Shown here: positions 17,592 through 56,648 of the stretch, piece after piece
Position numbering within the stretch: the stretch's first letter is position 1
Layout of the letters: each line of letters starts with the position of its first letter
Assembly (NCBI GenBank): GCA_028868535.1
Contig: JAGWUH010000009.1
Location: 1 to 64,000 of the forward strand
Source of the DNA: Sphingomonadales bacterium
GTDB lineage: Bacteria; Pseudomonadota; Alphaproteobacteria; Sphingomonadales; Sphingomonadaceae
Length of the DNA stretch: 64,000 nucleotides
Direction of reading: 5' to 3'
Program-made: the position numbers and the translations under genes
Notes under the pieces: generated by a model
Seen by the model: only the letters and a program-made list of their open reading frames with translations
Databases searched by the model: none
Told to the model about the DNA's origin: nothing

Positions 17592-17595
17592 AAGG

Positions 17596-18000
17596 TGCCA
17601 GGGGGCCTGTAAGCCGGGTTCTGTGATCCGGACGGTATCCCACGAGAGACCGTATCCGGAACGGCAGCCATTCCTCTCGGCGGCATGTTGCCATGCCGCT
17701 CCAGCGACCAACCCGGGCGACTGGGCTGAAACGGCCCTGCTGTTGCCAGCGTGTCCCCCCTATTCGGTCTTGCTCCGGGTGGGGTTTGCCATGCCGCTTC
17801 CGTTGCCGGTCGCGCGGTGCGCTCTTGCCGCACCCTTTCACCCTTGCCTGCCCCGAAAGGCGTCGGCGGTCTGCTCTCTGTGGCACTTTCCCTATGCCCG
17901 CTTGCGCGGACACGGCGGGCGTTACCCGCCACCCTCGTTTCATGGAGCCCGGACTTTCCTCGACGTGCAAGCACGGCGCGGCTGCCCGGCCCCCTGGCAG
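17596..18000 (-). ncRNA. rnpB: RNase P RNA (bacterial type A)
   Basis: Minus strand carries gaggaaagtccgggctccat near the 5' end and acagaacccggcttacagg near the 3' end; terminal P1 pairing ccagggggcc/ggccccctgg (17598-17607 with 17988-17997). Confidence 0.95.
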
Positions 18001-38394: not shown

Positions 38395-38492
38395 TTGCAG
38401 CAATGTCAGTATTCGCGTCTAAGGAACGGGCCTTTCAGGCATCCTCTCCCAAACTTTAATGGGGCCGGTCGCAAGATCGGCCCTTTCTTTTT
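38395..38492 (+). ncRNA. Candidate alphaproteobacterial sRNA (MmgR/suhB-like) with its own promoter and terminator
   Basis: TTGCAG-17 nt-TCTAAG promoter (38395-38423), C-rich single-stranded caucctctccc, terminator GGGCCG-gtcgcaagat-CGGCCC-TTTCTTTTT. Confidence 0.55.
38462..38492 (+). terminator. Rho-independent terminator
   Basis: gggccg...cggccc followed by tttcttttt. Confidence 0.85.
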
Positions 38493-38556
38493 GCGAAGGC
38501 GAAGCGTCGCCCATACTGACGGGCGCGGCCGCCCCGCCGTAACGCCGCCACTTCTT

Positions 38557-53419: not shown

Positions 53420-54655
53420 ATGTCGGACATCAAGAACGTCGTACCCAAGAAGGTCGTTCTGGCCTATTCGGGCGGCCTCGACACCTCGGTCATCCTCAAG
53501 TGGCTGCAGGTGACGTACAACTGCGAGGTGGTGACCTTCACCGCCGACCTCGGCCAGGGCGAGGAGCTGGAGCCGGCGCGCGCCAAGGCGCGGCTGATGG
53601 GCGTGCCCGACGCGAACATCTACATTGATGACCTGCGCGAGGAGTTCGTGCGCGATTTCGTCTTTCCGATGATGCGCGCCAATGCCCGCTACGAGGGCGA
53701 CTACCTGCTGGGCACGTCGATCGCGCGGCCGCTGATTTCCAAGCGGCTGATCGAGATCGCGCGGGAAACCGGCGCCGATGCCGTGGCGCATGGCGCGACC
53801 GGCAAGGGCAACGACCAGGTTCGCTTCGAGCTTTCCGCCTATGCGCTGGAGCCGGGCATCAAGGTGATCGCGCCGTGGCGCGAGTGGGACCTGACCAGCC
53901 GTACCGCGCTGATCGCGTGGGCCGAGCAGCACCAGATCCCGGTGCCCAAGGACAAGCGCGGGGAAAGCCCGTTCTCCACCGACGCGAACCTGCTGCACAC
54001 CTCGTCCGAGGGCAAGGTGCTGGAGAACCCGTGGGAGGAGACTCCGGACTATGTCTATTCGCGCACGGTCAATCCCGAGGACGCGCCCGACCAGCCGGAA
54101 TACGTGACGATCGATTTCGCGCGCGGTGACGGCGTGGCCCTCAACGGCGAGGCGATGAGCCCGGCGACGTTGCTGACCGCGCTGAACGAGCTGGGGCGAA
54201 AGCATGGCATCGGGCGGCTCGATCTCGTCGAGAACCGGTTCGTCGGCATGAAGTCGCGCGGGATGTACGAGACGCCGGGCGGCACGATCTATGCGATCGC
54301 GCACCGCGGCATCGAGAGCATCACGCTCGATCGCGGGGCGGCACACCTCAAGGACGAGCTGATGCCGAAGTATGCCGAGCTGATCTACAACGGCTTCTGG
54401 TTCGCGCCGGAGCGCGAGATGCTGCAGGCGGCGATCGACCACAGCCAGGCGCGGGTGAACGGCACGGTGCGGCTGAAGCTGTACAAGGGCGGCTGCTATG
54501 TCGTCGGCCGCAAGTCGCCCGACAGCCTTTATTCGGAGCGGCACGTGACGTTCGAGGATGATGCCGGCGCCTATGACCAGAAGGACGCAGCCGGGTTCAT
54601 CAAGCTGAACGCGCTGCGGTTGCGGTTGCTGGCACAGCGCGATTCGCGCGGCTGA
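53420..54655 (+). CDS. argG: Argininosuccinate synthase
   Basis: [47 protein letters not shown]. Confidence 0.98.
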
Positions 54656-54877
54656 TCGACCCGGCGGCGACACGGCAAGCGGCGGCGCGGTGGTTGTCCA
54701 CCGCTGCGTCGGCGGCTGTGGATAAGTCATGCAGATTCTGCTTGCGCGACTCGGGGACGAGGCGCAGCATTCTCCCTGTCGAGAGCAGGAAACGCTGCGG
54801 AAAGCGGGCTTCAAACCCCTGATTTTCCGAAACGATCCTTGCTCGAGAAGCTGAGCATTCGCACTGGATTTCGATCA

Positions 54878-55605
54878 ACCGAAGCGCGCGCGAGCGCGGT
54901 TTCGGTGGCGGTGGAGATGTGGGGCGAATGGGCAGATCCGGTGGCTCAGGCTGCCGGGAATGCAGGAATGCGAAGGAGCCATGCCGGACCGTGGACGCGC
55001 AAGCGTCGGGCGGAAAGGCGCCGGATGGCATGCGCCGCAAGGCGATGGTGCCGGAAGGAACGGCCGGGACTTGCAGGGCCGAAGGGCGCTGCGGGGAACG
55101 GTGCGGCCGCAGGGCCGAAGCCGCGAGGCTTCCGACTGCGAGCGCGCGAAAGGCGGCGCCGCGAGGCAAGCCGTCCAACGTCGGTGGCAAGGCGCAGGCA
55201 GGTGTTTCCGGCTTGAGCGACCGGGAGGCTTTTCCCTGGCGGAGGGCCGTCCGGAGCGAGTGCCAGCAGGCACTGTCAGCTGCGGCAGCCGTGCCGGCAT
55301 GGGAAAGGTCCGCGTCCACCCCAGGCCGCAAGGCCGGCGGCGGGAGCGAGGACTTCGCCGGGCCCCGGCCCGGCAGCGCGACGATCAAGGCCGCGGTGGC
55401 CGCGATCCGGATGCGGGAACCGTCCTTTCGGGGATCGGGGACGACTCCTTCGGGAGCCGATGCGGAAGGAGCCGCGGCAAGGGCTGGCAGACCGCAAGGA
55501 AGCCGGCCATTCGCCGGACGCCGGGTCGAAGCGTGACGAAGGACAAGCACCGACGCCAGTGGTGGGACGAGAGTGGGGGCCGGCAGCGATGTCGGCCCCC
55601 ATTTG
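54878..55605 (+). ncRNA. Candidate large structured RNA with multiple GNRA/UUCG hairpins and terminal hairpin
   Basis: GCGA, GCAA and TTCG tetraloops closed by 3-6 bp stems at 54878-54906, 54994-55007, 55033-55044, 55117-55132, 55158-55167, 55324-55335, 55445-55456; terminal hairpin 55575-55600; no convincing protein. Confidence 0.45.
55575..55604 (+). terminator. Terminator-like hairpin GGGGGCCG-gcagcgatgt-CGGCCCCC-ATTT
   Basis: 8-bp stem, short T run. Confidence 0.6.
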
Positions 55606-55790
55606 CGTCTGGTGGACGCGAGCGGGCCATGGGCGCGAGCGGGCCATGGGCGAGCGGTTGGCGCCGGACAGCGGGATATCCGGCGTGAGGCCGGGCGGGG
55701 CATGGCTGCGTGCTGTCGGCGGGGCGGCGGGGCGAGCGGCGGGGCGGCAAGGCGCAGGTCATAGTGGCGACAGCGTCGCGCGTGATGCCC

Positions 55791-55834
55791 GGGCGATAAA
55801 GCATGGCTGGGCGGGCGATAAAGCATGGCTGGGC
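55791..55834. repeat. Exact 22-bp tandem duplication (gggcgataaagcatggctgggc x2)
   Basis: Direct reading. Confidence 0.85.
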
Positions 55835-55875
55835 GGGCGTGGCGGAGCGCGGCGCGGGCGCGGCGGATCTGAGCC

Positions 55876-56168
55876 CGGGCACGCGGTGGCGGGTTCGCCG
55901 GGCGAGTGAGCGATGGGGCAGCGGCGGGTTGTGCGGCGGCGGCGTGGCGCGAGGCATAGCGGCGTGGGAGCGCCTCCGGGCACGCGGTGGCGGCAGGTTC
56001 GCCGGGCGGGGCTGCGAATGGGGAAGCCAGGCGACCGGGCTTGTGGCGGCGGCGTGGCGGTGAAGCGGGTCCGGCGGAGCAGCCGGGCCAAGCTTCGGTT
56101 GGCGGGATCGCGTGGCGCGGTGCCGGAGCAGCGCCGCCGGGCACACGGGGGCGGGTTCGTTGGGCGGT
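55876..56168. repeat. Three degenerate copies of gggcacgcggtggcggg(ca)ttcgccgggcg
   Basis: Copies near 55876, 55977 and 56138. Confidence 0.6.
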
Positions 56169-56207
56169 GCGGCGACGCATGGGCCGCCGTGGGACGGCGC
56201 GGGTGGG

Positions 56208-56648
56208 TCAGGCGGGGCGAACGAGGCTTTGCGGGCTGTACCAGAGGGTGCGGGGACGGCGGTGGGCGATCAGCCAGTCGCCGGCGAGCTGTTCCAGCCT
56301 GTCGTCGTAGTAGCCGCTGTGATCGGGGCCGTGGGCGGTGATCACGAACCAGTAGGTGCGCGCGGTGGCGGTGGCTTCGTCCAGGAGATCGATGCGCATC
56401 GTCGTCAGGTGGTGGCTGACGTAGGCAGGGGTGGCGGTGGACGCGGCGGGCGCGGGGATGACCGAGGGCGCGCGCATCCACTGGCGGATCGCCTCGCGGC
56501 CCGACAGGACCTGGCCATCGAGCTGGAGGACGCCGGCCGGGGTGAAGCAATCGGCGTAGGCATCGGCCTTGCGGGCATCGCCCGACTGGGTGGCGATGGC
56601 GAGGCGGTTGGCGATCAGGGCGCGGGCGGCGGCGTAGACATCAGGCAT
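56208..56648 (-). CDS. SnoaL/NTF2-like protein
   Basis: ALIANRLAIATQSGDARKADAYADCFTPAGVLQLDGQVLSGREAIRQWM, YVSHHLTTMRIDLLDEATATARTYWFV. Confidence 0.8.
   Translation of the reverse strand: MPDVYAAARALIANRLAIATQSGDARKADAYADCFTPAGVLQLDGQVLSGREAIRQWMRAPSVIPAPAASTATPAYVSHHLTTMRIDLLDEATATARTYWFVITAHGPDHSGYYDDRLEQLAGDWLIAHRRPRTLWYSPQSLVRPA

Follow-up and report, generated by a model that had tools for sequence, protein, structure and literature searches.

In the window (i.e. the whole stretch of 64,000 nt of DNA that was analysed), the gene for argininosuccinate synthase, argG, is followed on the same strand by a unit consisting of DnaA-box-like sites, a promoter-like block containing a GANTC site, a body with many short hairpins, and a terminator-like hairpin. 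Its features are as follows:

53420-54655, + strand: argG (argininosuccinate synthase), an ORF; the syntenic neighbour, outside the RNA
54694-54702, + strand: DnaA-box-like site TTGTCCACC, read from the sequence and recurring in relatives
54717-54725, minus strand: DnaA box TGTGGATAA (TTATCCACA on the minus strand), a sequence motif
54741-54770, + strand: promoter-like block CTTGCGCGACTC-N9-GCGCAGCAT, the putative promoter
54742-54747 and 54765-54770, + strand: sigma70-like -35 (TTGCGC) and -10-like (CAGCAT) elements, with a spacer of 17 nt
54748-54752, + strand: GACTC (GANTC, CcrM methylation site), directly 3' of the -35
54777-55604, + strand: predicted transcript of ~0.83 kb, from the promoter position to the terminator
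54798-54829, + strand: predicted 5' domain hairpin CGGAAA..CCCCTGATTTTCCG, with conserved AA and CTGA segments
54830-55226, + strand: lineage-specific expanded part, holding the first five GNRA hairpins reported earlier
55227-55248, + strand: core helix H1, GGCTTT(T)CC..GGAGGGCC, with partner changes in relatives
55259-55274, + strand: core helix H2, AGTGCC-AGCA-GGCACT, with variants at loci L123 and L295
55324-55335, + strand: core helix H4, GGCC-GCAA-GGCC, stem kept and loop exchanged in relatives
55445-55456, + strand: UUCG hairpin CTCC-TTCG-GGAG, loop start 55449
55574-55604, + strand: intrinsic-terminator-like hairpin TGGGGGCCGGCA-GCGA-TGTCGGCCCCCA, followed by TTT (a short U tract)

A preliminary description of this DNA had proposed a large non-coding RNA from its hairpins, which do sit at the places given there when checked against the sequence, including the terminator-like hairpin (at 55574-55601, and carrying a GNRA loop, GCGA). 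The start at 54878 that it had assigned is wrong, because a conserved 5' domain and the promoter, at 54694-54830, lie outside that span, placing the start of the unit ~100 nt further upstream. The -10 of the window copy is weak (CAGCAT), and its terminator-like hairpin is strong and covarying, with only ATTT downstream.

Perfect stems of at least 4 bp that are capped by GNRA loops are found with loop starts at 54890, 54999, 55037, 55123 and 55328. When stems of at least 3 bp are counted over 54800-55610, the + strand holds eight GNRA-capped stems and the minus strand none, compared to an expectation of 1.05 for the + strand in dinucleotide shuffles of the same interval (0 of 500 shuffles reach eight), so that the abundance of capped stems pointed out earlier withstands this comparison. 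Among 118 homologous elements, with the terminator excluded, there are 151 GNRA-capped stems of at least 4 bp on the + strand versus 16 after shuffling, and 16 on the minus strand versus 7 after shuffling, while UUCG-capped stems number 70 on the + strand (0.8 in shuffled sequence) and 0 on the minus strand. Such an asymmetry between the strands is predicted by a functional RNA, and not by a DNA element or a gene. The folding energy of 54800-55610 gives z-scores of -4.6 (+) versus -1.2 (-), with -0.2 for a GC-rich neighbouring control (55701-56180). A weaker point is that in relatives the general folding energy lacks strand specificity (z of -2.5 on the + strand and -2.0 on the minus strand); the argument rests on the tetraloops and on covariation. 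The neighbouring part of the window, 55620-56180, has a GC content of 75-79%, a strong G skew and short direct repeats (GCGAGCGGGCCATGG, GCGATAAAGCATGGCTGGGCGG), and no Pfam domain was found in the ORFs tested there.

Compensatory changes in the stems occur among the homologs, as judged with controls that are blind to phylogeny and as is expected of a conserved structured RNA. In the terminator, 97.8% of the positions are paired over 61 distinct homologs, compared to 83.8% when the arms are re-dealt among sequences (0 of 2000 re-dealings, a control that ignores phylogeny), and the loop is GNRA in 100 of 102 cases. A hairpin in the 3' domain of the Erythrobacteraceae, flanked by AAGC and CCAC, has 88.8% of its positions paired (n = 25 distinct sequences), versus 61.7% on average and 72.8% at most with re-dealt 3' arms (0 of 2000, the control again ignoring phylogeny); A-T, T-A, G-C and C-G pairs are exchanged for one another, and each of five positions shows several kinds of standard pair. 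As the shuffles ignore relatedness, these results appear strong but not final. In the core, both partners of H1 change together in relatives (CCTTCC/GGAAGG in L123, GACCC/GGGTC in L035), H2 is found as GATGCC-GCGA-GGCATC (L123) and GGCGCC-GCAA-GGTGTC (L295), and the loop of H4 is GCAA, GCGA, GAGA or TTCG in relatives of the window's subgroup while its stem is kept. The 5' domain hairpin could be aligned in 104 representatives, and in 78 of alignment A2; a whole-length RNAalifold consensus on a mixed alignment was uninformative for this domain, alignment quality being limiting, and folds per clade performed better.

That the region encodes a protein, or the remains of one, seems extremely improbable. 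The window does have ORFs of 205 and 242 aa on the + strand and of 526 aa on the minus strand, as expected at ~70-74% GC, but none of the ORFs overlapping the unit contains a Pfam domain, the longest + strand ORF varies from 32 to 205 aa among the 118 elements, and tblastn among homologs recovers essentially terminator DNA only, with no protein similarity beyond it. The earlier statement that no convincing protein is present therefore stands, the ORFs having neither a domain nor conservation.

It is hardly credible either that the unit is a divergent version of a known RNA (RNase P or tmRNA) or a mobile repeat, even if its size and richness in GNRA loops would suit the former. At gathering thresholds, Rfam models have no match for this region in a search of the whole window; with E-values up to 10, the interval 54600-56300 yields two sub-threshold chance matches only, with OLE, GOLLD, ROOL and HEARO (the families proposed for checking) all absent, and eight diverse homologs searched at E-values up to 1 give a single chance match (0.9). 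For RNase P and tmRNA, of which the preliminary description recognised no signature, there is indeed no match at this locus, and both RNAs are matched elsewhere in the genome: the sole RNase P match in the window (RF00010, class A) lies away from the locus at 17594-17997 on the minus strand, and alpha-tmRNA (RF01849) is found elsewhere in all four genomes tested, including the window's own (G000:C9). Against a mobile repeat, the unit is present as a single copy in the window's genome, and no copy of it was found in the phages and plasmids searched. A separate Rfam match in the window, just above the gathering score, is an mmgR/suhB-family small RNA (RF00519) at 38423-38498 (+).

In searches among relatives, BLASTN against 60 genomes mainly matches a block at 54693-54791 and the terminator (55565-55612), which in Novosphingobium members lie in this order downstream of argG. 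Because the middle diverges, a BLASTN query with the whole region picks up chiefly the two ends and is of no use in delimiting the family. The argG protein is matched in 115 of 120 Novosphingobium genomes, and ~57 of 110 argG loci in this genus carry the unit, mostly 50-350 nt past the argG stop, with the layout TTGTCCAC, followed by TGTGGATAA at 24 nt ahead of CTTGNNCGACTC-N9-GCGCAGC, a stretch of ~500-860 nt, and finally GGGGCCGGCA-GNRA-TGCCGGCCCC. The spacing of 24 nt from the DnaA box to the CTTG block is kept in nearly all Novosphingobium carriers, and in other genera the box reads AGTGGATAA. The promoter-like block is kept in ~57 Novosphingobium loci, and scanning 85,488 species genomes for its exact pattern leads to 114 stretches; among the matches listed are Novosphingobium, Erythrobacter, Altererythrobacter, Aurantiacibacter, Pelagerythrobacter, Croceibacterium, Croceicoccus, Parerythrobacter, Pontixanthobacter and unclassified MAGs, mostly of Sphingomonadales. 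Nearly wherever the upstream sequence suffices, these matches lie right after argG, most exceptions being close to the end of a stretch. A covariance model of the Erythrobacteraceae 3' domain (R1) has one strong match (E below 1e-10) in each of 44 of 201 Sphingomonadales genomes, and all 30 matched loci that were examined lie immediately downstream of argG, including those of genera in which the promoter has drifted. The window copy is an outlier: with 0.83 kb, it is 41-52% identical to the co-aligned elements, the elements aligned with it mostly have gaps where its expanded part (54830-55226) lies, and the R1 match to the window copy is confined to the surroundings of the terminator (E 1.4e-4).

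Of the Novosphingobium sampled, about half have no such unit behind argG, which means that there it is either not essential or has moved. Some loci have unusual arrangements: L025 has a terminator of the unit's style alone, ~42 nt after the argG stop (possibly the relic of a deletion), L068 has three tandem terminator hairpins with a spacing of 47 nt, 822-940 nt after argG, and in L093 (G001), with which L202 is grouped, the unit lies ~1.9 kb beyond argG, from which it is apparently separated by inserted sequence.

Given the recurrence at a fixed place, the covarying stems, the absence of ORF conservation and the lack of an Rfam match, a large non-coding RNA of an undescribed class, as was proposed initially, is still the best reading. 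It is very likely that the signals read here from the genomes reflect a real, conserved and as yet unannotated large structured RNA at this locus. A literature search, which covered sources other than subscription journals, found no description of it.

Whether such an RNA would have a gene of its own or be part of the argG transcript is a further matter. The unit lies downstream of argG on the same strand, species without it carry a different terminator-like hairpin a short way past argG, and L025 keeps only a terminator of the unit's style, all of which would suit a long structured argG 3' UTR, formed by read-through to the terminator of the unit, so that the RNA would be a tail of the argG transcript, either processed or passive. 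This reading is nevertheless unlikely, since a promoter block of fixed geometry is situated between argG and the RNA, the unit of L093 is far removed from argG, and similar units exist in other genera away from argG. It is very likely, then, that the unit is a free-standing gene, with a DnaA/GANTC promoter and a GNRA-capped terminator, whose product is a large structured non-coding RNA. Transcription would start near 54777 from a sigma70-type promoter, with the GANTC directly after the -35 and the DnaA boxes just upstream, and would end at the GNRA-capped terminator (55574-55604), releasing an RNA of ~0.83 kb predicted to form several domains made up of many short helices with GNRA or UUCG caps.

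Of 152 promoters, 146 retain a GANTC (GACTC in 133, GAATC in 13, and never GATTC or GAGTC), although this count is partly biased, because part of the set was retrieved with a pattern containing GACTC; loci found via argG (with mismatches tolerated) and via R1 (for which the pattern was not used) have mostly the same GANTC forms. Read on the minus strand, these sites are of the GAGTC or GATTC form and fit YGAKTCK, as does CGAGTCG in the window, which is the extended motif that has been proposed for CcrM-methylated promoters activated by GcrA, a partner of sigma70 (PMC7987155). GcrA is encoded in the window's genome (a PF07750 match that passes the cut-off and is partial, at a contig edge). The fixed spacing of the DnaA box, together with a GANTC that may be used by GcrA, naturally suggests that expression is tied to replication: DnaA would act early, and passage of the fork would leave the GANTC site hemimethylated. 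From motif and position, it seems reasonably likely that expression is coupled to replication through DnaA and through GcrA at the CcrM-methylated GANTC, which suggests a cell-cycle-linked RNA that is so far undescribed.

The same promoter motifs could also mean that the locus controls replication as a DNA element, either as oriC or as a DnaA-binding site like datA or DARS, with the RNA being incidental, in particular as the units of Erythrobacteraceae have up to three DnaA-box-like sites besides the conserved GANTC. This is quite improbable, however, as it leaves covarying helices and one-strand tetraloops over hundreds of bases unexplained. As for oriC, G118, a relative with a complete genome in a single contig, has its minimum of sampled GC skew near 1.0-1.1 Mb, with hemE close to it at 1.21 Mb, whereas argG is at 0.076 Mb; the locus is therefore not oriC, despite its DnaA box.

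Units of like anatomy are also found at other loci in further genera of the Sphingomonadaceae. In genus g34 (L335-L355), the unit lies beside a UvrD-like helicase gene (as read from the translated flank) and has a block that hardly varies, containing a perfect DnaA box and, in most members, a GANTC (a 32-nt block is identical between L335 and L336), a structured-RNA-like body with a strongly conserved 3' domain (alignment A3, model R2) and a GNRA terminator. Genera g27, g41 and g23 (L357, L360, L362 and L363) have like units at yet other loci, each with a DnaA box, a GANTC, a body of ~0.4-0.7 kb and a GNRA terminator. The hairpin GGGGNNGGCA-GNRA-TGCCNNCCCC is a generic terminator of Sphingomonadaceae that also occurs beside ordinary genes (L333, L334, L338 and L339), and such a terminator is therefore by itself no evidence of homology. 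R2, built on the g34 domain, strongly matches only further g34 members; its score on elements of the argG type comes mainly from the terminator, which it also picks up at the ends of ordinary genes. With so little found beyond the terminator, what is shown across these clades is common anatomy only, and any homology between them is putative. We entertain, tentatively and somewhat short of conviction, that all of these units form a Sphingomonadaceae-wide class of large, fast-evolving structured RNAs that are activated by DnaA and GcrA/CcrM at replication, with one locus per genome where tested. In such a class the body would be replaced quickly between genera while the promoter logic, helices, tetraloops and terminator persist, and the locus would be downstream of argG in Novosphingobium and Erythrobacteraceae, helicase-adjacent in g34 and elsewhere in others.

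What the RNA does may be approached from what is conserved. The helices and tetraloops are kept while the intervening sequence changes freely, which is at odds with an antisense regulator that has a fixed seed and favours a role as a structural scaffold or protein-binding RNA (i.e. in an RNP) over antisense pairing; such a role is suggested here with low confidence. Few large structured RNAs are known from bacteria besides those of the ribosome, RNase P and tmRNA, and every new class of them has opened its own biology. The present case combines a chromosomal RNA, cultured environmental bacteria, a conserved genomic address and signals that would tie the RNA to replication, as a result of which its regulation (by DnaA, CcrM and GcrA) and its function are testable at once. 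In addition, the rapid turnover of the body amounts to a natural experiment on the way in which a large RNA can keep its function while its sequence changes.

OLE, GOLLD and ROOL are, like the predicted RNA of the argG unit, free-standing non-coding RNAs of roughly 0.5-0.9 kb with many helices, and the formation of a homo-oligomeric complex is a trait of all three. The unit differs from them in being unmatched by their Rfam models and in its DnaA/GANTC promoter. GOLLD and ROOL are moreover encoded in prophages and phages (PMC12286853), whereas the argG unit is located on the chromosome beside a constant neighbour gene, and no copy of it was found in phages or plasmids. The raiA-motif RNA (ModT) is likewise a conserved, structured and free-standing RNA (PMC11706538); it is known from other phyla, and the argG unit has no Rfam match. 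CcnA of Caulobacter is another alphaproteobacterial non-coding RNA with ties to cell-cycle regulators; it is encoded at the origin, presumably activated by CtrA, and acts on the ctrA and gcrA mRNAs (PMC8959179), whereas the argG unit has DnaA and GANTC motifs and, in the genome tested, is not located at the origin. The promoter itself most resembles the sigma70 promoters controlled by GcrA and CcrM, in that a GANTC is located within the promoter in a YGAKTCK context (PMC7987155), with the difference that a large RNA, and not a protein, is the apparent product here.
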